Position numbers and translations under genes: made by a program | Shown here: in pieces, positions 20,714 through 32,215 of the stretch | Layout: each line of letters opens with the position of its first letter | Numbering within the stretch: position 1 is the first letter of the stretch | The notes under the pieces: generated by a model | The model's input: only the letters and a program-made list of their open reading frames with translations | The model's database searches: none | Told to the model about the DNA's origin: nothing | IMG/VR virus record: IMGVR_UViG_3300007344_000092 | Coordinates: 1 to 36,099 of that record | Length of the DNA: 36,099 bases | Reading direction: 5' to 3' (one strand) | From: a virus

Positions 20714-23700
20714 ATGAACGAACAGGCACTACAGGACGCTTATACTCTGTTCCAGCAGGAAGGGTACAACAATTCGTTTGACGAGTTTGTCAACTTGATT
20801 AACAGTAATGACCAAGCTCTTCAAGATGTCTACAACCTGTTCTCTCAGACAGGCTATAACAAAAGCTTTGATGAGTTCAACACCTTGATTGGTGTAAAAA
20901 AAAAAGACGATACTTCGGAGTTGGTCTCTCCTTTGGAAACGGTTTCTACGGAGTCTACCTCTCCTACGGTTCCACCACAGCAGGACGTTCCTGGAGATTC
21001 GGCTTCTCAAGTAACTGAGCCTGACTTCGCCGAGCTCGCTATGGGCTTGGAGGTGGGTGTTGAGACCCAACCATCTTACATGCAGGCACCCGGTATTAGA
21101 CCGGAGAAGGCACAGCAACAAGCAGTAGACCAACTTGCAGAGGAGCAGGGTTGGTCCAAGATGCCAACTGCCCCTCAGGATTTAGAAGAGTACTTCAGTA
21201 AGATTACGTCTCTACAGCAAGATGACCCGGACTCTATGTTTGAGGGAATCATTGCTGGAGGTCTCCTTGAGATGCCTGAGCTGGAGAAAGAAAAGCTTTC
21301 ACGTATTGCTGAAGGGGAGTCTTACTTCCTGGACCAGGAGAAGGCAAACGCGGCCCTGCAATACGACGAGGAGTACCGGGCAAAAGCTGCAGACGCGGCT
21401 AAGGGCCTAGTTCTCATTGAAGACGATGTCACAAATGTGTTCTTGAACGCTCAAGCGTTGAATACCGACGGGCTTGATGTCAACGCTTTGATGGACCTGA
21501 AGGAGCAATACACCCAAGAGCTCCCTAAAAAGAGAAGGGCCACTGTGGAGGCGATGGACCTCGAGGACTTTGTGCAGTACACAGCTGAGACCCGTATGCG
21601 CCGACAGTTTGCGGAAGCATTCATGGGCATGTCCGGCCTTACTGAAATGGACTTGCAGGTCAAAGTCGGCACAATGCGAGGCGAGATTGACGCAGCTCAA
21701 AGTTTTCAGGAAGACGGCAGCTGGGCGGCAAAAAAGTGGAGCAACTCCTGGAACACAAAAATGGGGGAGTGGGGTAGCGGAGGTAAGTTTGCTAGAGCCA
21801 AAGCCAGCGTAGAGCTTCTTGACGAAGACCTGAAGGATATTGACACAGTCCTCGGTATGTACGGGAGAGCTCCGTCTGAGGATGAGCTTATCCAGATTGG
21901 ACGTATGGTCTACAAGGGAGACACGTCTGACCTGGCTGGAGACCTGGGCGATGAAATCTCCACCAGGCAAATGCCACTGTCAGGGCCTAACTCTGATGCA
22001 GGACGTAAGGCATTGATTGAGCAGGGGATGAAAGCTTTTAAGCTCAACAGGGATTGGTGGGAGTCAAAGAAGAAGGAGCTGGAGGAGCTTCGAGAAAAGA
22101 AGCAGAAGGTTGGTGAGTACTATGCAAAAGACTTTGCAGAGATTCAATCCTTCAGGGATGTGACATCTAAGCTTATTGACCAGAAGGTTATGAGCGAAGA
22201 AGACCTTAATAAGGGAGCTATTGAAAGTTTGTTTGAGGGAGACTACAAGCTCTTCGGGTACAAGACTGTTGGTTTGATTTTCGACATTGCTCCGGACATG
22301 GCGAAAGGTATGGGAGCTGCTACTGTAGGTTCTCTTGTTGCCGGGCCACAAGGCGGAGCGTTAGCCATGAGTTTGGCTTTTGGCGTTCAGACGGCAGACC
22401 AAGCAGCGGGGGAATACGCATCACGGCCAGAGGTGACAGGAATTGAAGCGCTAGAGATGGCGGGGAAAGAAGGGTCTATTGAGGCTGGCATTTCTCTTCT
22501 ATTTGCTGGGCTTCAAACAAAGCAGGCAGCAATCGTTACAAAGGCTTCTGAGGAGGTTGCAGAGGCGTTTGTAAAGGGTGGGTCCAGAGAGTCTTTACGA
22601 GCGGCTAGAGAAGCCGTACAGGCGTTTGCGAAGACAGATGCTGGTATTAAAATTCTAGACGTTTTAGGTGAGGGCGCCGAGGAAGGATTGATTACAGGAC
22701 TGTCTCAGTATACCAGAGCTGTAAACGAGGTGGGCCAGGGTCGCATGACCGCAGAAGAAGCAAAGGCGGAGTACTACAACAGGTCAGAGATATTTGACAG
22801 CATTTACGCAGGTGTTCTTGGTGGTGGGGTGTCTTCTATTCCGTTTGTGCTTAGCAGAGGCGGCAGTGCTATCGGGTCTAAGTTCACCATGTTTGACCGA
22901 ATCAAAATCCAGACTGAAATGGAGGAGATTCGCACCAAGCTTGCAGACTCCAATACTACAGCTGAGGAGAAGAAAGAGTTGAATGCTAGGTTCACCAAGC
23001 TTCATGACGACGCCAACAGTCTCTCAAGAAAGGATATTGAGTTCTATCAGAACATGACGGAGGAGGACCAGAACCGACTGGTCGAACTCAACCAAAGAAT
23101 CAGCAATGTTCGCAGGGCTTCAAGACAAGCGGTCACCAGCCTTTCTGCGCTAAGGAATAGAATCCGTCGTGCTGAGTCTCCAGAGCAAAGAAGAGTCATG
23201 GAGGCTGAGCTCAATCAGCTTACGTCTGCAGAAGCCCAGAGAAGGACCGCCGCTGAGGCTGACATCAGGTCTCTCATGCAAGAGAAGCTCGAGATTGAAA
23301 ACAAGTATGGCTCTGCTGATTCTGGATTTGACGTCGACGTAGAGAGAGAGCAAAGAAATCGTGCTGAGGTTGAGCGCATGGTGAATGAAGTGCTCAACGT
23401 GGACAAAGGATTTGAGGGGTTATTTTCAGCTTTGGGCGTCAAGGGTATCAAGAAGGGGAGCATCAAGCTTACAGCAGAAAACGTAGAGGTTGTTCTTCAG
23501 CGCCTACTCTCTGGGGAGATTAAGGGCACACGATTTGCTACTGCAGAACAGATTAGAGACGGTATTGTAAGCGCGTTTGGAATGGCTAAAGCTGTCATTG
23601 CGGATAACCCTGACGCAGAGGTGGTGCTTGTCGACAGCCTCACGCAGTGGAAGAAGGAGACACGCGATGCCAAGAATCCAGATGGATACAGTGTCAGCTT

Positions 23701-26700
23701 GGGTATCCATATTCCTACAGATGGAGGTAAGATTGTATTGTACGCCCCTGCGTTAAAGTCTAACACTGCTTACCACGAGGGATTCCACCAGATGGTGTTC
23801 CGGATGATGCAGAAGAGCGGCGTTGACAGAGGGGCTGCCATGATTAGACTTGCCTCTGTAATTAGAAAGGGCATGAGTCCAGAGCTGTTGGAGAGATACG
23901 GGAGGTTTGTTGGAATGTACAAGGACCCCAACGACGCATTTAATGACGCGCTGTTGGCCGAGGAGTTCTTGGCTGAGGTGTTTGGCGACCTTGCCGACGG
24001 CGCTATCGACATCAAGTTCCAGAAGGGTATCGTCAGTTCGTTTTTGCAGTTCTTGAACCAGGCACTCAAGGAGAGAAACATCAGAGTTACTGGTACGCCC
24101 CTGACACAGGACATCGCTGTTGCGATTAGGGATGCGGCAAATGCTTTTAGGGATGGTGAAGGCGGGGCACAAGAGAACATTCTCCTAGCATTTGATGCAG
24201 CCGACAACATTGTGTTGACCCCAGGGCTTGAAGCTCTTCGGGCCAAGCTGGAGGTACGACGCCACAGGAGGGCAATAGCGCAAGCATTGAGCGAGCTGAC
24301 ATCCGACGACAGTCAGGATAGCAGGGCGCATGCTCAGAGAATCGAGGAGCCAAGTGTGCTTGGAGACTGGGCGAATGAGTTCCTGCGTTATGACAGCAAA
24401 GGCAACGTGAGGCTGTTCCATGTGGGGCCAGAAAATCTTGAGGGCAACTTCATTGACCCACGCCGCTTTGGACAGCAGCCGTACACCAAGGACAAGAGAG
24501 GGGACAAGGTTTCTATGTTCTACGTGAGGCCAGAAGACCGTGAGCGCATGGTGCTGGGTAGAACGTACGACGTAACCATTCCGCCTCAGATGCTTTACGA
24601 CCTGTTCAAGGACCCACTTAACCTGTACGATACTGCGAAGGCTGAGTTCCAGAAGAAGCATAGCATTGCGTTCGATGGCAATAGGCAGGCAGAGTGGATT
24701 GGATACGAAGCGAGAAAGCTCGGCTTCGACGGTATCGTTGTAAAGTGGAGAAACACAGCTCGCGTAGACATGTGGGCTCCTGTGACTCCAGATGAGTTCG
24801 GTGGGTACACACCTCAGGGTAGCCGAATCGGTGAGGCAGACATCAGGGTTATCAGTGAGAAGGACAAGTACGGCATGTGGCGCAACCTGTCAGGCCGCTA
24901 CAAGGCCAATACAGATGCTCACGTTCGTATGACTACGGGTGCTGAAAACCAAGTCACAGAATTGTCAGAAGAGGAAGTGAGCAAGCTCTTTGATGAGGGT
25001 GCTAAGTTCGTAACCGCTAACGCGCTGGGTGTCAATGCAATAGGTTACGTAACCGCTGACGGATACATCGGAGGTCTCAGTAAGAATCCAGAGGGTGTTG
25101 GTAGAGGTGTTCAAGCGGCTCTTCTTGGTAAGCGTGTAGAGCTTGGGGGTACACACCTTGAGTGCTTTGCAACCTACCTCGAAGGCAACAACATTAAGGA
25201 AGGATTTGTGCCTGTCGCTAGGATTCCATTTAACGTGGAGCTTGCTCCTAAGGGATGGGACGCAGAGACGTCTTTGCTGAAGGATAAGCCGGACCTAGTG
25301 TTCATGGCTCACGACCCCGCAGCCGCGAAGAATGCCAAGCCTGGTGATGGCGCACGCCTTGACGACTATATGGAGGCGCTTAACATGGCCATCGACAGAG
25401 TGTCTAGGGCAGAGGAGCAGCAAGACGTTGACGAACAGTTCATCACAAAGAAGAAGCCGGGAGAGAGGGTGAAGGCTCAGGCGATGGAGCGGTCATGGCT
25501 TTCATCAAACACGCCTAAGCTTGTAAACGCTGGAATCCTCATGCACGGAACCAGTGCAGACTTCACTGAGTTCTCTATGCGCAAAGCAACTGAGTCAACG
25601 GGCATGTACGGCAAGGGCGTGTACCTGACCCACAACGTCGATAAGGCGTTGTCTTACGGGGGTAACTTTGTCTTTGTTGACGGTGAGAGATTAGACCTTG
25701 CCAACCTTCAAAGCAAGGAGGTAGCCGACAAATTCTTGAACTCTGTTCTTGCTAAGGAAACAGAAGGAGGCCTCGGTCTTGCTGCTATTGCTGCTGGTAA
25801 AGCAAAGCGTCCCGTAGGCCTTGTGGGCAAGTACGATTTGTTTAGCCTTGAATACCAAGTGCTCTTGATGTACTCTGGCTTGGACCTGGAGCGCGTTATA
25901 GGTACTGATGAATTGCGTCCTAGATATGACTTTGACAGACTTCAGGACCCAGTAGAATTTGTAGAGTCAATCTACGAAGAGATGTACAAGCTGGCTGAGG
26001 GAGTAAACATCCCGATGAGCTCCGCTGAACAACTGTCTTCATTTGGTCTAAACGGTATAAGGTCTCACATGACTGGCAGGTCAATGGGTATGGTACCTGG
26101 ACTCGGAGGCTTCGTTAGGAATGTATTTAGAACATACAACAACAGGCTTTCTGAGCGAAGAATAGACCCCAAGGACTTTGAGAATGACGAGTTGAAGTAC
26201 GATGTTGCAATAGCCCTAATCGAGGGCGCATACATGACTCAGGTTATCCGGGCAGGATATGACGGTGTGTACGTATCTCGTGAGTTTGACTATGGAGGCA
26301 GCATGGAAAGACTCGACGACAACAGGTTTGAAAAGTCAGGTGTGGATGGCGGTCTCGCTCAAGAAGCAATCATATTCAACAACACACTGCTAAACCAAAG
26401 CATCGTTGAGTTTGAAGATGTAATCCCTCTTGCTGACTCTCGTATTTCTCAAGGAAGAACGCGCACGGAGAAAGGTGGAGAGCTCGGCACTGACCTCTTG
26501 CTCAACGACAGAATGAAAGCCTTGGGCGCTGTCAAGAGACAAGGGCCAGCGCTCAATGAATACATGGACAACTACGACTCAGAGGTCGCAGACTTTGTAG
26601 ATTCAGATAGCATCCCGGTCAAGGTTCGTTCAGAGCAGGACCTGTCTCGCATGGAGTCAATCATGCTTGATGTCCTTGAGTTCTTCTACGACAAGTTCTA

Positions 26701-29482
26701 CAAGGCACTGCGAATCCAGAGAGAGATTCAAAAGGCTCGTGGTGGTCGCCGTGTCATGCGTGAGCAAGACTACGAGATGGCCCTGGCACTTATTGATGGT
26801 AAGGCGTCAGGCAGGCTGCAAAGCGTAGACAAGTTTATGGAGCAGCTTGCTGGAGTCATGAACAAGTACGGCATTCTGCACGACCAGCTTGGTCAGTTCC
26901 TGTACGCCATGCACGCCCCCAATCGTAACGCTGTCATTGCGGAGCGAATGGCCAATTCACTCAACGCTATCAGAAGCGAAATTGAACAGCTGCAGGAGCA
27001 AGTCAACAGAGAGGAGGACGTTGAGGAGAAGGGTAAGCTTCAGAAGAAACTCAAAGACAAAAGAGACAAGGCTCAGGAGATTGAAGCTCGCATGGAGGGG
27101 GGCAACTTCTCAGGTATGACTGACCAAGAGGCCCTCGAGTTGGTGGAAGCATTGGACTCAGAAGGCATGCGTGAAGCATACCAGATGGTCATGGACTTCC
27201 AGAAAGAGACACGACAGCTCATCGTAGAGTACGGACTGGAGACCCAGCAGACTATCGACATGCTCGAGGCCGTGTACCCAAGCTATGTACCACTCAGTGG
27301 ATTTGCTATGGACGAGGACGCCAACGAAGTAGGTTATGCGAACATGCACCAGGCACGTGTCTTCAGGGGTATCCGCCGAGCTGAGGGTAGAACGTCAGAG
27401 GCACGCAACCCACTCGACCACATCTTTGAAAGAAGATACCAGACTGTCCTTGCCGGGGAGAAAAACGTGGCAAACACCCGCCTGCTCAACCTGCTTTCTG
27501 CAAACCCTGACCCATCTATGTACCAAATCTTCGGACCAAAGGACAAGCTGCCTGGTGTCGTAGGAAGAAAGGGTCGCATGACTGAGTCCGAAGCTCGTAG
27601 AGATGAACGTTTTGTTGAGGTTGTTGTGAATGGTGAGACTTTCTTCATTCGCTTCGAGAGTGAAGCTGTGGCCAGAGCAGTCAACAAGCACAATATCACA
27701 AGGCTTGGTGACGGTGTCCACAAGTACGTTCAGAAAACGTTCCAGATGATTCGCAGCTTTGGAAGGTTTATGTCTATGTCGTTCACCAGCTGGTCGCCAG
27801 ACTTCGTTGGACAAAACTTTATCCGTGACTTGCAGTTCGGTTTGGGCTCACTGCTGGCAGAGCAGGAGATTGCTGGAGGTCAGGCGTATGGGGAGAAGAT
27901 TGTTAAGGACGCAGCGAAGGGTGTGTATCCAGCGCTGAAGTTCCTGGGCAAGACAATCGTCGGTGGAGTTGAGGACACTTCAGACCCACTGTACAGGTAC
28001 TACAAGGAGTTTTCAGAGAGAGGTGCAACAACTGACTGGCCGTACCAAAAGAACGCAGACCAGTTCAGGAGCGACATCGAGACTCTGACCAATGCACAGA
28101 ATCCAAACCTCAAGACCAAAGCCACGACCCTACTCAAGGCTACAGGTCGGTTGGTTGATGGCGTCAACAAGTCTGTTGAAAACGCTGTAAGATTCGCGGC
28201 GTTCGTGGCCGCACGTAAGGCTGGTGTGGATGCAGAAGCAGCGGCATACTTGGCCAAAGAACTCACCATCAACTTCAACAGAAGTGGCAGTGGAGGCTCA
28301 GTTGTCAATGCAATCTACCTGTTCTTCAACGCAGGTGTGCAGGGTACAGCCAAGTTTGTTCGCACCATGGGTACATTGAAGAAGGTGCCTGATGGTCGTG
28401 GAGGATACTACAAGACGTTGAACTCCGCGCAGATGGTTGCTGCTGGCATGTCAGGGTTTGCATTCCTGATGGCCTTCGTAAACGAGGCGATGTCTGGTGA
28501 GGACGAGGACGGAAGAAGCCACTACGAAAAGATTCCGGACTACGTCAAGGAGCGCAACATGATTTTCATGAACCCGTTCGACGAGGAAGGGAAAGACCGC
28601 TTCATAATCCCACTCCCTTACGGTTACAACATCTTCCACAACGCAGGTACTGTTGGGGCTGAGGTTGCCATGGGTATCCGCAGCGCGGGTAGCGCGGGTA
28701 TGTTCTTGACCGGAGGCATGGTGAACTCGTTCATCCCGGTGTCATTCGGTCAATCATCTAGCGTAGCCAAGAAGACTGTCAAGGCATTCACACCAACGTT
28801 CCTGAGACCTTGGATGGAGTGGGCCATCAACGAAAGCTACTTCGGTACACCTGTGTACAACGAGAACTTCCCTGGACAGAACCTGCCTGCATCGTCGCTC
28901 GCATCTCGTTCACCTGAGTGGTTGAGAGAGACAGCCAAGTTCCTCAACGAGGCTACAGGCGGTAACGAGTTCGAGGCGGGGTGGCTTGATGCCGACCCAG
29001 ACGTGGCGGCCTACATTTTCCAGTACTACACTGGTGGAACAGGTAGATTCTTGGAGAAGGTATCTAAGTCTGTAGACAACTCCATCAGTCTGTTGGCTGG
29101 TGAGTCTGACATCAGAGCTGGAGAAATTGCATCTGACCTGCCACTGTTTGGAAAGCTTTACGGCACACCTAATGCAAGGCAGGACGTTGCTGACTACTAC
29201 AAGTTCAGAACAAACGTTAGAACCAAAGCCAAAGCGGCCAAGGAGCTCGGTCTCGATGATGAGAAGTACAGGAACTCTGTTGTCCTAAACGAAATCGGAG
29301 TCAACGCCGACCGTCAGCTGAAGGAGAACAGAAGGCTGATGCGCGCTGTGCAGAACAACGACAAGCTAGACCCTCAGGTCAAGGCTAGAGACATCGAGAC
29401 CCTCGAAAGAGAGCGCATGCAAATTATCTATAACTTTAACCGCGAATATCTCAAGTACTATGAAAGAAGAAAAACAGATTAA
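20714..29482 (+). CDS. Giant polyvalent virion protein with zincin, two ART-like modules and LPD38-like region
   Basis: A 2922-aa protein, probably packaged and ejected with the genome. Order: two helical repeats (residues 4-60); A/T/P-rich linker; long helical region with a Gly/Ala-rich hydrophobic segment (about 515-565); coiled coil (about 726-870); zinc-peptidase motif H1021-E-G-F-H1025 with a downstream acidic EEFLAEVFGDL (E1083-E1088); an ART-like start at RLFHVG (H1236); a GNAT-like segment (about 1430-1535; GGTHLECFATYLEGNN...GFVPVARIPF); a second ART with H1611-G-T, G-K-G-V-Y1637 and QEAIIFN (E1884), a full H-Y-E triad; a second coiled coil (about 2080-2130); and an LPD38-like region (about 2330-2560) with FTSWSPDFVGQNFIRD and FFNAGVQGT. 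This matches the 'polyvalent protein' architecture described for phages and conjugative elements. Host targets are unknown. Confidence 0.85.
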   Translation: MNEQALQDAYTLFQQEGYNNSFDEFVNLINSNDQALQDVYNLFSQTGYNKSFDEFNTLIGVKKKDDTSELVSPLETVSTESTSPTVPPQQDVPGDSASQVTEPDFAELAMGLEVGVETQPSYMQAPGIRPEKAQQQAVDQLAEEQGWSKMPTAPQDLEEYFSKITSLQQDDPDSMFEGIIAGGLLEMPELEKEKLSRIAEGESYFLDQEKANAALQYDEEYRAKAADAAKGLVLIEDDVTNVFLNAQALNTDGLDVNALMDLKEQYTQELPKKRRATVEAMDLEDFVQYTAETRMRRQFAEAFMGMSGLTEMDLQVKVGTMRGEIDAAQSFQEDGSWAAKKWSNSWNTKMGEWGSGGKFARAKASVELLDEDLKDIDTVLGMYGRAPSEDELIQIGRMVYKGDTSDLAGDLGDEISTRQMPLSGPNSDAGRKALIEQGMKAFKLNRDWWESKKKELEELREKKQKVGEYYAKDFAEIQSFRDVTSKLIDQKVMSEEDLNKGAIESLFEGDYKLFGYKTVGLIFDIAPDMAKGMGAATVGSLVAGPQGGALAMSLAFGVQTADQAAGEYASRPEVTGIEALEMAGKEGSIEAGISLLFAGLQTKQAAIVTKASEEVAEAFVKGGSRESLRAAREAVQAFAKTDAGIKILDVLGEGAEEGLITGLSQYTRAVNEVGQGRMTAEEAKAEYYNRSEIFDSIYAGVLGGGVSSIPFVLSRGGSAIGSKFTMFDRIKIQTEMEEIRTKLADSNTTAEEKKELNARFTKLHDDANSLSRKDIEFYQNMTEEDQNRLVELNQRISNVRRASRQAVTSLSALRNRIRRAESPEQRRVMEAELNQLTSAEAQRRTAAEADIRSLMQEKLEIENKYGSADSGFDVDVEREQRNRAEVERMVNEVLNVDKGFEGLFSALGVKGIKKGSIKLTAENVEVVLQRLLSGEIKGTRFATAEQIRDGIVSAFGMAKAVIADNPDAEVVLVDSLTQWKKETRDAKNPDGYSVSLGIHIPTDGGKIVLYAPALKSNTAYHEGFHQMVFRMMQKSGVDRGAAMIRLASVIRKGMSPELLERYGRFVGMYKDPNDAFNDALLAEEFLAEVFGDLADGAIDIKFQKGIVSSFLQFLNQALKERNIRVTGTPLTQDIAVAIRDAANAFRDGEGGAQENILLAFDAADNIVLTPGLEALRAKLEVRRHRRAIAQALSELTSDDSQDSRAHAQRIEEPSVLGDWANEFLRYDSKGNVRLFHVGPENLEGNFIDPRRFGQQPYTKDKRGDKVSMFYVRPEDRERMVLGRTYDVTIPPQMLYDLFKDPLNLYDTAKAEFQKKHSIAFDGNRQAEWIGYEARKLGFDGIVVKWRNTARVDMWAPVTPDEFGGYTPQGSRIGEADIRVISEKDKYGMWRNLSGRYKANTDAHVRMTTGAENQVTELSEEEVSKLFDEGAKFVTANALGVNAIGYVTADGYIGGLSKNPEGVGRGVQAALLGKRVELGGTHLECFATYLEGNNIKEGFVPVARIPFNVELAPKGWDAETSLLKDKPDLVFMAHDPAAAKNAKPGDGARLDDYMEALNMAIDRVSRAEEQQDVDEQFITKKKPGERVKAQAMERSWLSSNTPKLVNAGILMHGTSADFTEFSMRKATESTGMYGKGVYLTHNVDKALSYGGNFVFVDGERLDLANLQSKEVADKFLNSVLAKETEGGLGLAAIAAGKAKRPVGLVGKYDLFSLEYQVLLMYSGLDLERVIGTDELRPRYDFDRLQDPVEFVESIYEEMYKLAEGVNIPMSSAEQLSSFGLNGIRSHMTGRSMGMVPGLGGFVRNVFRTYNNRLSERRIDPKDFENDELKYDVAIALIEGAYMTQVIRAGYDGVYVSREFDYGGSMERLDDNRFEKSGVDGGLAQEAIIFNNTLLNQSIVEFEDVIPLADSRISQGRTRTEKGGELGTDLLLNDRMKALGAVKRQGPALNEYMDNYDSEVADFVDSDSIPVKVRSEQDLSRMESIMLDVLEFFYDKFYKALRIQREIQKARGGRRVMREQDYEMALALIDGKASGRLQSVDKFMEQLAGVMNKYGILHDQLGQFLYAMHAPNRNAVIAERMANSLNAIRSEIEQLQEQVNREEDVEEKGKLQKKLKDKRDKAQEIEARMEGGNFSGMTDQEALELVEALDSEGMREAYQMVMDFQKETRQLIVEYGLETQQTIDMLEAVYPSYVPLSGFAMDEDANEVGYANMHQARVFRGIRRAEGRTSEARNPLDHIFERRYQTVLAGEKNVANTRLLNLLSANPDPSMYQIFGPKDKLPGVVGRKGRMTESEARRDERFVEVVVNGETFFIRFESEAVARAVNKHNITRLGDGVHKYVQKTFQMIRSFGRFMSMSFTSWSPDFVGQNFIRDLQFGLGSLLAEQEIAGGQAYGEKIVKDAAKGVYPALKFLGKTIVGGVEDTSDPLYRYYKEFSERGATTDWPYQKNADQFRSDIETLTNAQNPNLKTKATTLLKATGRLVDGVNKSVENAVRFAAFVAARKAGVDAEAAAYLAKELTINFNRSGSGGSVVNAIYLFFNAGVQGTAKFVRTMGTLKKVPDGRGGYYKTLNSAQMVAAGMSGFAFLMAFVNEAMSGEDEDGRSHYEKIPDYVKERNMIFMNPFDEEGKDRFIIPLPYGYNIFHNAGTVGAEVAMGIRSAGSAGMFLTGGMVNSFIPVSFGQSSSVAKKTVKAFTPTFLRPWMEWAINESYFGTPVYNENFPGQNLPASSLASRSPEWLRETAKFLNEATGGNEFEAGWLDADPDVAAYIFQYYTGGTGRFLEKVSKSVDNSISLLAGESDIRAGEIASDLPLFGKLYGTPNARQDVADYYKFRTNVRTKAKAAKELGLDDEKYRNSVVLNEIGVNADRQLKENRRLMRAVQNNDKLDPQVKARDIETLERERMQIIYNFNREYLKYYERRKTD
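20723..20893 (+). repeat. Two tandem 30-residue helical repeats at the giant protein's N-terminus
   Basis: Residues 4-33 and 34-60 of the giant protein are a direct protein repeat: QALQDAYTLFQQEGYNNSFD... and QALQDVYNLFSQTGYNKSFD..., identical at 19 of 26 aligned positions. The conserved frame is QALQD.Y.LF.Q.GYN.SFDEF..LI. Similar short 'Y.LF...GY.GSFDEF' units occur at the ends of other large marine phage virion proteins, where a packaging or targeting tag is a reasonable but unproven role. The repeats end directly before the A10 run. Confidence 0.85.
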
Positions 29483-29897
29483 GGACACCGCCCTTGGGGG
29501 GTGGATGAAAGACAAGGCTCCTGATGTCTTGAAGGTTGTTGGTCACATGCTGCCTGACAGAGGTATGCTGGGCATTGTTAAGGGCTTGCTGCATAAGGAC
29601 CCTCAAGTCAAAAACGATGAGGCTGATGCGATGGTAGACGCAGAGGTTCACTTCCAAAACAATGTGACTGAAAGGTGGAAGGCGGACATGGGCAGCGATG
29701 TAAAACTTGCAAAGCTTATTAGACCTGTAACCCTGATTGCTCTTATGTCAATGTTCATGGTTACCATGGTCATGGATAGCCTTGATAACCTGCCATTTAA
29801 CGTAAAAGATTCGTACGTATCTTTGCTCGAAATCCTTATGCTGACTGCATTTGGTGCATACTTCGCAGGTAGAACAATCGAGAAATCTAAAAAATGA
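29460..29897 (+). CDS. Holin (GTA_holin_3TM-like)
   Basis: A 145-aa protein overlapping the giant gene's end by 23 bases. A helical N-terminus is followed by the signature NVTERWKADMGSDVKLAKLIRP (about 69-89), just before hydrophobic segments at about 88-106 and 120-138, and a basic C-terminus (RTIEKSKK). The 'RW.aDm.sd..LakliRP' block before the first membrane helix is characteristic of the holin family known from gene transfer agents (GTA_holin_3TM). It would form inner-membrane pores at the end of infection. No endolysin is recognised beside it. The stop overlaps the next ATG (ATGA). Confidence 0.75.
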   Translation: MKEEKQIKDTALGGWMKDKAPDVLKVVGHMLPDRGMLGIVKGLLHKDPQVKNDEADAMVDAEVHFQNNVTERWKADMGSDVKLAKLIRPVTLIALMSMFMVTMVMDSLDNLPFNVKDSYVSLLEILMLTAFGAYFAGRTIEKSKK

Positions 29898-30028
29898 ACG
29901 AAGACGATTTTGGAGACGTCAGCTTCTTGGACAAGAGTAAGTTAAAGAAGCAAGAAGAAAAGATTGAATCGGGTGAAATTACTTGCAACATCGAGAATCC
30001 AGAAGATTGTGAGTCTTGTAGCGGATAA
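29894..30028 (+). CDS. Small acidic Cys-containing protein, unassigned
   Basis: A 44-aa protein starting at the ATGA overlap with the holin gene. It is acidic and Lys/Glu-rich, with three cysteines near the C-terminus (TCNIENPEDCESCSG). Coupling to the holin and to the following barrel gene (which starts about 20 bases before this stop, if the GTG start is right) supports a real gene. The C-terminal Cys spacing (C-x7-C-x2-C) could bind metal, but nothing proves this. No signal peptide. Confidence 0.6.
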   Translation: MNEDDFGDVSFLDKSKLKKQEEKIESGEITCNIENPEDCESCSG

Positions 30029-31055
30029 ATCGCTGAGGCTATTCATTGCTTTCTTATTGTTAAGCGTAGCTACTGTCGCTCAAGGACAGTTGCTGCGCTT
30101 TTCTACGTTGTATGGTAGCCTTAGCGGCAACGCACCACTCGTAGAGAACTCCAGGTACAGGGTCAATGGTGTAGCTGGTTCTGGATACCTTGAAGAAATC
30201 ACAGAGGTAAACAAGCCCAACTACATCCTTACCCTGGGGCTTCGTAAGCTTGCTAGATTTGACTATCAAGTAAAGCAGGGACAGTTCTACACCGGGCAAG
30301 AGAATGAAATTAGCGACAACGCTACTGTTTCTAACGCGCCTGGGCTTGAATATCTTTTAGAATACTCTGCTGCTAGAAATAGGGGTGATGTATTCAAGCA
30401 ACAACAGTACGGAATAAGGTACATTAGCAACTGGTTTACTGTAAAGGGAAGCTATATCAGCGATGGGTTAATAAACCTGAAGTATACACAGGCAGAGGTA
30501 AGGCTAAGAAAAAGGTTTGGTGACTTTGACCTGACAATAGGAGCGGCTCACAGAGCTCACCCGGTTTACGGTTACTCCCCTATTGAGGCTTGGTTTGACG
30601 ACCCGGCCAATAAGCACTGGTGGCAGCTTGCAAATGAGTTCGGATTCTCTAGCGACGAGAATGAGGTTTGGACATTAAATGGTGACGTCGTTGCTCAGTC
30701 AGACGTAGAGTTTTATGGGTATCACTTTGGTCATATCGTTAATGACTACAACAGGAGGGAATTAGAAGAGTTTGGGCTACAGCAAGAGGTGTCTGGTGTG
30801 TTGGGGTTAGACTACTACAAGTACACAGAGCAGTCTTGGATACACACTTGGTGCTCAATCTACTCCATGCACGAGGGGCTTGATGAGTTTTCATTTGAGT
30901 ACGAAGACGAGATGGATATTGAGTGGGACGCCGGGCTCATCATTGGAGCAAAGGTTAACAAACATCTTAGTATATTTGTAGAAGCCAGACACTTACAGTA
31001 CTGGCAAATCACATCATACGCTGGCAGATGCGGCTTTAATTATTTATTCTTTTAA
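30009..31055 (+). CDS. Putative outer-membrane beta-barrel protein
   Basis: I choose GTG at 30009 (348 aa), which gives a standard signal peptide: basic start, hydrophobic core LFIAFLLLSVATVA, cleavage near QGQ. In-frame TTG (29964) or GTG (29973) would leave an unusually long n-region; none is certain. The mature protein is full of alternating aromatic/hydrophobic strands (for example YQVKQGQFYTG, FTVKGSYISDG, FDLTIGAAHRAH) and ends in FNYLFF, with a terminal Phe as in barrel signals read by the BAM complex. Tyr, Trp and Asp are abundant. An outer-membrane protein in a phage lysis region might disrupt or modify the outer membrane, or block superinfection; the function is unknown. Confidence 0.7.
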   Translation: MSLVADKSLRLFIAFLLLSVATVAQGQLLRFSTLYGSLSGNAPLVENSRYRVNGVAGSGYLEEITEVNKPNYILTLGLRKLARFDYQVKQGQFYTGQENEISDNATVSNAPGLEYLLEYSAARNRGDVFKQQQYGIRYISNWFTVKGSYISDGLINLKYTQAEVRLRKRFGDFDLTIGAAHRAHPVYGYSPIEAWFDDPANKHWWQLANEFGFSSDENEVWTLNGDVVAQSDVEFYGYHFGHIVNDYNRRELEEFGLQQEVSGVLGLDYYKYTEQSWIHTWCSIYSMHEGLDEFSFEYEDEMDIEWDAGLIIGAKVNKHLSIFVEARHLQYWQITSYAGRCGFNYLFF

Positions 31056-31057
31056 GA

Positions 31058-31333
31058 ATGGCAAAGGTTGGAGAGAACACGGAGGTAACACTTGACCTCA
31101 AGACGTTGGGAATGGTGGCTGCCGGGGTAGCAAGCATGGTTGCCATGTGGTTCTCGCTCCAAGCCGACATTGCCGTCGCAAAAGAACTACCCGCCCCGGT
31201 TGCTCCAGAGATTACTCGCATGGAGTTTGACATGAAAGACCAGTTGGTCCGTCAAACAATCATGACGACACAAGAGGATGTTACCGAGATGAAGGAAGAC
31301 ATCAAGATGATTAAGGAAAAGCTCTATGAATAA
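31058..31333 (+). CDS. Single-TM plus coiled-coil protein (possible inner-membrane spanin)
   Basis: A 91-aa protein. An N-terminal cytoplasmic stretch is followed by one hydrophobic segment (about 17-35, GMVAAGVASMVAMWFSL), then a Pro-rich linker (ELPAPVAP) and a charged, heptad-like C-terminal half (about 52-91) rich in Glu/Lys/Met. This topology (N-in, TM, periplasmic coiled coil) is that of i-spanins and of some phage holin-like proteins. It lies between the barrel and the thioredoxin-fold gene, two bases after the barrel stop. I cannot assign a family from sequence. Confidence 0.7.
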   Translation: MAKVGENTEVTLDLKTLGMVAAGVASMVAMWFSLQADIAVAKELPAPVAPEITRMEFDMKDQLVRQTIMTTQEDVTEMKEDIKMIKEKLYE

Positions 31334-31697
31334 GCTGCTCTTTTTACTGCTCTTGATTCCCACGACGGCGTTCTCTCAGAGCTTTATCAAACTCAAAGAG
31401 CTCGATGCCAAGAAGTCTAAAGGCATCACCATCGTTGAGTTCTGGGCTTCCTTCAATCAATCAAATGAGGTTGCATTTATGAAGGACCTCGATGATTGCA
31501 GAGCTTATAGGTTAGACATCTCTACCAACCCTGCAGCGTCATCTCAGTATTCAGTAATGAGTGTCCCTACTGTTGTTGTATTTGACAACGGTGCAGAAGC
31601 ACTAAGATACACACCAAACATCTTGATGCAGCTCGTGGCTACGCAGAGAGAAGTTCAATCAGATATTGACAATATTATTCTTAAAAAGTTTCAATGA
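31326..31697 (+). CDS. Exported thioredoxin-fold protein lacking both catalytic cysteines
   Basis: A 123-aa protein with a signal peptide (LLFLLLLIPTTAFSQ). The rest is a thioredoxin fold: VEFWASFNQSN (residues 37-47) takes the place of the thioredoxin VDFWAEWCGPC, and YRLDISTNPAASSQYSVMSV (61-80) then PTVVVFDNG matches the beta-3/helix/cis-Pro part of thioredoxin (P81 = the cis-Pro). Both catalytic cysteines are asparagine (N44, N47) and there is only one Cys (C58), so a redox role is unlikely. It may bind or fold peptides in the periplasm, or decoy a host thioredoxin partner. It overlaps the upstream gene by eight bases and the next by ATGA. Confidence 0.85.
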   Translation: MNKLLFLLLLIPTTAFSQSFIKLKELDAKKSKGITIVEFWASFNQSNEVAFMKDLDDCRAYRLDISTNPAASSQYSVMSVPTVVVFDNGAEALRYTPNILMQLVATQREVQSDIDNIILKKFQ

Positions 31698-32215
31698 AAA
31701 ATTTAGCAGCAATCGTTCTGGCATTGTTCTCATTGTGCGCTTGTGCACAGCCGAACCTCACGCCTGTTTTTGTTGAGTGCACCGATGGAGATTACCCTAA
31801 CGAAATTACGTGGGAGATTATGACGTGCGACAGCATGATTATTTTGGGAGGCGGGGCGCCATACTTTGGTGCAGCGTTGATGCCAGACCCCGACAGGTAT
31901 ATCCTTCACATGATGGATAGCTACGGTGACGGATGGAATGGTGCATATCTTATCGTGGGTCAAGAAGAGTACGGATTCTTGTCGGACGTAGATTGGATTG
32001 ATTCACTCGGTACCTGGCCACAGGACAATCCAGAACAGTGGGTGACTGTGGGTTGCGGTCAGCCCGTCACAAGCATTCAAGAGATTGTCGAAGAAGTGTT
32101 TGTTCCTAATCAGTATTACAACCTGTCTGGACAGCAAGTACAGTTTGACAGAGAGGGGTACTACATTGCAACAGATGGACTTCGCTCTCGATTGATTTAC
32201 AGAAGAGAAGAATAA
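31694..32215 (+). CDS. Secreted or lipo-protein with DSYGDGWNG domain and T9SS-like tail
   Basis: A 173-aa protein starting in an ATGA overlap. The N-terminus MKNLAAIVLALFSLCACAQ is a signal peptide; cysteines 15/17 could be a lipobox, or cleavage could follow CAQ. The middle carries a domain found in flavobacterial and marine proteins: YPNEITWEI (about 34-42) and DSYGDGWNG (75-83). The last about 35 residues, beginning YYNLSGQQVQFDREGYYIA, look like a T9SS sorting domain ('yNlsGq.v......gyYi...g...rliyr'). Phage-encoded, it would be delivered to the outer surface, perhaps for superinfection control or host modification. The family name is by eye; a lipoprotein is a real alternative. Confidence 0.75.
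   Translation: MKNLAAIVLALFSLCACAQPNLTPVFVECTDGDYPNEITWEIMTCDSMIILGGGAPYFGAALMPDPDRYILHMMDSYGDGWNGAYLIVGQEEYGFLSDVDWIDSLGTWPQDNPEQWVTVGCGQPVTSIQEIVEEVFVPNQYYNLSGQQVQFDREGYYIATDGLRSRLIYRREE

Follow-up and report, generated by a model that had tools for sequence, protein, structure and literature searches.

Phage-encoded cargo of the host type IX secretion system (T9SS) was reported in 2019 and 2020 (PMC6949934, PMC7468147), which overtakes the remark in the original prediction that no common phage example was known. According to the available part of the Cryophage paper (PMC7468147), three variable genes are proposed as T9SS cargo; their products, enzymes and a PA14 protein, carry recognised T9SS type A sorting domains and are proposed to hijack the T9SS of the host. 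The available part of the report on crAss-BACON gut phages (PMC6949934) likewise describes phage genes with T9SS sorting domains, one of them on a BACON protein, with the cargo lying by the head genes. The protein studied here, p173, is also phage-encoded, but it is a single small, conserved protein whose short tail goes unrecognised, it belongs to a lysis cassette, and its payload is unrelated to that of the crAss-BACON cargo. When searching the literature on phages and the T9SS, we found no paper describing such a short tail within the lysis cassette of a phage. Thus phage-encoded T9SS cargo has already been proposed, and what is new is the conserved family, the minimal tail that escapes the models, its likeness to short tails of host proteins, and its place in a lysis cassette.

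T9SS type A cargo proteins resemble p173 in having a signal peptide, a sorting signal in C-terminal position, a GR/GQ loop motif and a hairpin with a hydrophobic-basic end. However, the type A C-terminal domain (CTD) is a seven-strand Ig-like beta-sandwich of about 70–100 residues, whereas the tail of p173, at about 35 residues, does not form such a sandwich, lacks the first strands and strand 5, and falls below model detection.

The window, the whole stretch of DNA analysed here, is a 36 kb virus record (36,099 nucleotides; IMGVR_UViG_3300007344_000092). The ORF of p173, its signal peptide, its DSYGDGWNG domain and its C-terminal tail are all present as first described, and the features of p173 and its neighbours are collected in Table 1. 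The start of p173 overlaps the stop of the upstream gene (ATGA, 31694–31697). The signal peptide, recognised by eye, reads MKNLAAIVLALFSLCACA and is followed by Q after the cleavage site, and the tail reads YYNLSGQQVQFDREGYYIATDGLRSRLIYRREE from residue 141 to residue 173. Judging from sequence, we consider it likely that p173 is phage-encoded cargo of the host T9SS, set in a late cassette, whose core ends on the cell surface or outside the cell. The protein would be exported by Sec via its N-terminal signal peptide, the tail, with its loop motif and C-terminal hairpin, would act as a minimal type A-like signal for the PorV/SprA route of the host, and the core would then be displayed on the cell surface or released outside.

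Table 1 Features of p173 and of the genes upstream of it, in window coordinates.
Feature	Coordinates	Strand	Basis
Holin, upstream of p363	29460..29897	+	phrog_3427, E 2.2e-21
p363, signal sequence and outer-membrane beta-barrel ending in Phe	29964..31055	+	AlphaFold2 (low-confidence model, pLDDT 64); porin and autotransporter-barrel fold matches
p91, one N-terminal transmembrane segment and coiled-coil-like tail	31058..31333	+	By eye; conserved order
p123, signal peptide and thioredoxin fold without CXXC active site	31326..31697	+	PDB sequence search with alignment, giving thioredoxins
p173, putative Sec-exported protein with short T9SS-type tail	31694..32215	+	ORF of 173 aa, ATG to TAA; relatives; alignments
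p173 signal peptide, residues 1–18, signal peptidase I type	31694..31747	+	By eye; cleavage site inferred
p173 core beta-sandwich domain, residues 22–121	31757..32056	+	AlphaFold2 strands 23–119; alignments
p173 DSYGDGWNG motif, residues 75–83	31916..31942	+	20-member alignment; motif also in host secreted proteins
p173 variable linker, residues 122–138, low-confidence	32057..32107	+	pLDDT <50 at 124–133
p173 putative short T9SS type A-like sorting tail, residues 139–173	32108..32212	+	Profiles, hhalign, conservation
p173 YYNLSGQQV, residues 141–149	32114..32140	+	Counterpart of CTD loop motif Lb3b4 (RgpB FDMNGRR) in the long-CTD alignment; motif from the available part of PMC11285876
p173 predicted C-terminal beta-hairpin, residues 155–170	32156..32203	+	AlphaFold2 strands 155–160 and 165–170

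Relatives of p173 were found in 5 viral loci with the protein as query and in 29 and 51 loci with alignment queries, the 51-locus tblastn set including a few that match the DSYGDGWNG stretch only; named phage records gave a single weak partial match. Of the 29 loci, 19 were aligned with the window in 20 rows, after duplicates and two cut loci had been left out. In this alignment the core, which contains cysteines, and the tail are conserved, and the linker between them is variable (identity 0.32 within the DSYGDGWNG group). Cysteines C45 and C121 of the core are invariant, and C29 is kept in the DSYGDGWNG group only, while G146, G155, Y157, G162 and Y169 are invariant in the tail; the same G, G, Y, G, Y series is invariant across 27 phage tails. 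An N-terminal Sec signal peptide was recognised by eye in the window protein and the 19 relatives.

An AlphaFold2 model built with the 20 sequences (mean pLDDT 74) contains the core sandwich, the low-confidence linker and the terminal hairpin, with the tail strands predicted at 140–142, 155–160 and 165–170. Fold matches of the model were weak: the top PDB match in a fold search was an MmpS-type protein complex (E 0.014), and a PDB sequence search with the p173 alignment returned nothing. Calcium-dependent carbohydrate-binding modules found by VIA-align (best Z 5.4) lie under the noise level stated for the tool, and no function was drawn from them. Two T9SS-related chains also appeared, 8glk_D (Z 4.5) and 4ief_D (Z 4.0); they resembled the core and not the tail, and were set aside as common beta-sandwich likeness.

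The DSYGDGWNG domain also occurs in cellular proteins, including host secreted proteins. A first genome scan for cellular relatives of p173 gave none, and the relatives obtained in a second scan matched mainly in this domain. The closest cellular matches to the core (loci L035–L038, L042 and L043) are large tail-less proteins on contigs labelled SAR92/Porticoccaceae and related proteobacteria.

A diverged p173 homologue with a DFNGDAWGG core occupies the same slot in six loci. Between the two groups (8 and 5 sequences compared), core identity is 0.26 and tail identity 0.48, while tail identity within the first group is 50%. A tail that outlasts its payload in this way behaves as expected of a sorting signal.

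In 26 of the 28 loci examined, the genes p363, p91, p123 and p173 follow one another on one strand; contig ends cut the remaining two. A scan with p363 gave 58 loci, 49 of which have at least 2.5 kb downstream; all 49 of these contain p123 and 48 contain p91, an M15 endolysin is encoded in 37, and 43 have a holin on either side. Full-length p173 is encoded in 38 of the 49 (32 of the first group and 6 of the second), the second-group figure being what remains of 11 loci first counted after subtraction of five with a 39-residue N-terminal peptide only (L283, L285, L286, L287 and L297). The other 11 of the 49 loci lack p173 or retain an N-terminal segment of it. The peptide in the p173 slot of these five loci, and a similar one in L284 and L288, has about 30–39 residues and one hydrophobic segment, and resembles the N-terminus of the diverged p173. 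While no endolysin was found within the window itself, the window has the adjacent holin and its relatives have the M15 endolysin (Peptidase_M15_3, E 5.5e-17), as in a lysis cassette. p173 is accordingly an accessory member of a late, lysis-associated neighbourhood.

The barrel gene p363 invites comparison with type B cargo that has an adjacent PorP/SprF barrel shuttle, a system in which, in the available part of PMC12618676, the cargo gene also lies near an outer-membrane barrel gene. However, neither Pfam nor NCBIfam matches p363 to PorP/SprF, and p363 persists in cassettes without p173. The fold matches listed for p363 do not include PorV or PorP/SprF barrels. Searches of named phages and Pfam with p363, and of the phage collection with p91, gave no match. 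OMPLA appears in the fold list of p363, but a phospholipase of this type was rejected, as the H-x-S that we take to be the OMPLA pattern is not kept by eye (A198 in the window). In p123 the CXXC site is replaced (FWASFNQSN in the window); by eye, 24 homologues also lack CXXC, and the KFQ ending is conserved. A non-redox role of p123 is likely. In one relative (L254, 5289–5591) a DUF2279-type lipoprotein gene stands between p91 and p123.

Two roles for p173 were weighed against this neighbourhood. In the first, a guess from location and gene order, p173 may be a late-infection accessory factor that covers or modifies the cell's outer surface; by masking receptors, for instance, it could keep phage that superinfect or have just been released from being lost on a dying cell; we hold this role to be possible, with considerable doubt. 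Small phage proteins acting at the outer membrane are known from superinfection exclusion by T5 Llp and Cor, but these are periplasmic-side lipoproteins, while p173 would reach the outer side by the T9SS. In the second, p173 would form with p363, p91 and p123 a complex that breaches the outer membrane in place of spanins, with p173 outside or in the outer leaflet. This role is compatible with T9SS export and competes with surface masking. The late cassette adjoins the holin and the M15 endolysin, and p91 is i-spanin-like by shape only, both of which speak for such a complex; the presence of full-length p173 in 38 of 49 loci, on the other hand, means that p173 is not indispensable, and we regard a breaching complex as rather unlikely. 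The dispensability of p173 and its late position would suit a part in surface masking or release better than one essential to lysis. It also seems unlikely, taken as a whole, that p91, the redox-dead p123, p363 and a T9SS-exported p173 make up an envelope-spanning set that acts as a spanin substitute or exit device partly from outside, with a minimal T9SS signal of 35 residues that current models miss in phages and hosts.

The original prediction had proposed a search against the T9SS sorting-domain families, and had named the lack of a hit as grounds for giving the T9SS reading up; the search gave no match. TIGR04183 and PF18962 (NCBIfam and Pfam) matched neither the window protein nor its family members, searched in sets of 6 and of 20, PHROGs assigned no sorting domain to p173, and the 29 viral records of the family or cassette, each searched alone, contained no sorting-domain match. 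Without a curated-model match, p173 was not filed in TIGR04183. Weak matches of the family to other models were deemed chance, namely tRNA-synt_1c_C2 (E 0.035), T9SS_sortase_N (2 of 20 members, best E 0.18), MotB_plug and others. These sorting-domain models have 72–75 positions, against about 35 residues in the p173 tail. TIGR04183 touches 4 of 19 host short-tail proteins (best E 0.0053), more of them than any other family does; since the same models detect short tails of the host hardly better, we discount the miss of the p173 tail. In the same search, three other viral records from IMG/VR, candidate phage genomes, contain long ORFs with a type A domain above the TIGR04183 cut-off (L152 of G064, L153 of G065 and L155 of G066; E 2.3e-14, 7.7e-15 and 2e-5).

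To compare the tail with host proteins, a profile was made from 27 distinct phage tails, namely that of the window and 26 from the 51 viral loci and earlier copies. Run on 28 Bacteroidota genomes, which were chosen for DSYGDGWNG proteins rather than at random and include many MAGs, it gave 42 matches, 34 of which are the final residues of long ORFs. The first 13 genomes contributed 20 matches at E ≤ 1, with 19 ending at most 22 residues from the stop; a signal peptide was recognised by eye in all 11 of these 19 whose N-terminus was in view. The next 15 genomes contributed 22, of which 15 lie in ORFs of 100 aa or longer and passed the same C-terminal standard; the remaining seven comprise one contig-end ORF, two matches ending 30 and 41 residues short of the stop, two tiny ORFs and two unconvincing C-termini. 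Seven proteobacterial genomes gave two matches, neither of them C-terminal. A column-shuffled profile run on the same 28 Bacteroidota genomes gave 12 matches, none at the C-terminal standard, with a best E of 0.038 against 9e-5 for the real profile. The closest host tails are those of L208 (TQYYDVMGRKVSNPSKGLYI...STKRFILK, E 9e-5) and then L209 (E 4.7e-4). Type A CTDs are present in 13 of 13 genomes of the first set and SprA in 7 of 7 tested, 6 of which have a tail-profile match at E ≤ 1. From their position, their weak TIGR04183 matches and the presence of the T9SS, we infer that the host short tails are T9SS signals.

Short tails of the DILGRE...YDDGTVEKK type on secreted proteins of marine Flavobacteriales (L208, L158) have the same length and position as the p173 tail, while p173 differs from the proteins bearing them in being phage-carried, small and single-domain. 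An hhalign comparison of phage tails with host short tails gave E 5.5e-10 and a score of 40.9, the highest of 200 column shuffles scoring 13.7. This E value is partly circular, the host tails having been found with the phage profile; the cleaner test is the genome scan with the column-shuffled profile. Against 30 long type A CTDs, taken as the best matches and not as a random draw, the phage tails gave E 9.5e-4, a score of 17.9 and a probability of 22%, the highest of 200 shuffles reaching 16.5. This alignment places YNLSGQQV on the CTD loop and keeps G-x-Y and the C-terminus in register. Host short tails compared with full CTDs gave E 1e-4 and a probability of 58%.

The available parts of the Porphyromonas literature indicate which portions of a CTD matter: the last 22 residues of the HBP35 CTD direct GFP out of the cell (PMC4804311), and the loop and the C-terminus are needed in the Porphyromonas CTD, although the integrity of the whole CTD matters for RgpB and signals can be species-specific (PMC11285876). 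The phage tail retains both of these parts, a loop of the FDMNGRR type (YNLSGQQ) and a predicted C-terminal hairpin. The Gly of the YNLSGQQ loop is invariant in 27 of 27 tails, and the loop and C-terminal motif of type A are both present. The tail of p173 is best read, from these sequence comparisons, as a minimal T9SS type A-like tag.

It is quite improbable that the tail is instead a plain terminal beta-hairpin with a chance likeness to T9SS signals, p173 then being periplasmic after Sec export. The silence of the curated models is what such a hairpin would give, and the likeness to full-length CTDs is weak, with the shuffles beaten narrowly. Yet the profile finds the C-termini of secreted proteins (34 of 42, against 0 of 12 when shuffled), and the tail is conserved despite a diverged core and a variable linker. 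The claim of a T9SS-type tail is supported in part: the C-terminal profile matches and the hhalign comparison with host tails favour it, and the curated models give it no backing.

We think it very improbable that p173 is a lipoprotein or a virion protein. A lipobox-dependent periplasmic location had been raised at the outset, and the window p173 does match the lipobox pattern, with C15 and C17 near the end of its signal peptide; the pattern is atypical (L14-C15-A16-C17), however, and it occurs in this one of 20 members, the lipobox being absent from the other 19. A single member of the group could be exceptional in this respect. As to a virion protein, a Sec signal peptide is unusual for such proteins.

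The terminase, portal and capsid-type genes of the window match PHROG families, and the window also has primase/helicase genes. The portal has 87 relatives in the phage collection, and all but one Caudoviricetes record are phages of Flavobacterium, Cellulophaga, Tenacibaculum and Maribacter; a Bacteroidetes host is therefore likely. A 2922-aa polyvalent protein (20714–29482) is also encoded in the window; it contains an LPD38 domain (E 3.6e-33) and matches an ADP-ribosyltransferase weakly. That p173 comes from a host genome, through misassembly or a chimeric contig, has a negligible probability, for although its DSYGDGWNG domain is common to cellular proteins, the window carries the phage genes just named, the gene order recurs across the viral loci, and the cellular relatives match mainly in that domain.

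In marine Flavobacteriales (G007, G024 and others), many secreted proteins end in DILGRE...YIYDDGTVEKKI and are mostly missed by T9SS models, and T9SS cargo may be undercounted in these bacteria. If p173 is indeed T9SS cargo with a minimal tag, annotation would miss many short-tailed host cargo proteins, and the minimal T9SS signal would be directly testable with a natural 35-residue tag. The cassette offers a view of how Bacteroidetes phages may handle the outer membrane at lysis. The earlier suggestions linking phages with the T9SS that we found concern, in the available parts of the two reports (PMC7468147, PMC6949934), few cargo genes only, whereas p173 represents one conserved family in many marine phages; if the reading holds, use of the T9SS would belong to the ordinary course of infection by these Bacteroidetes phages.
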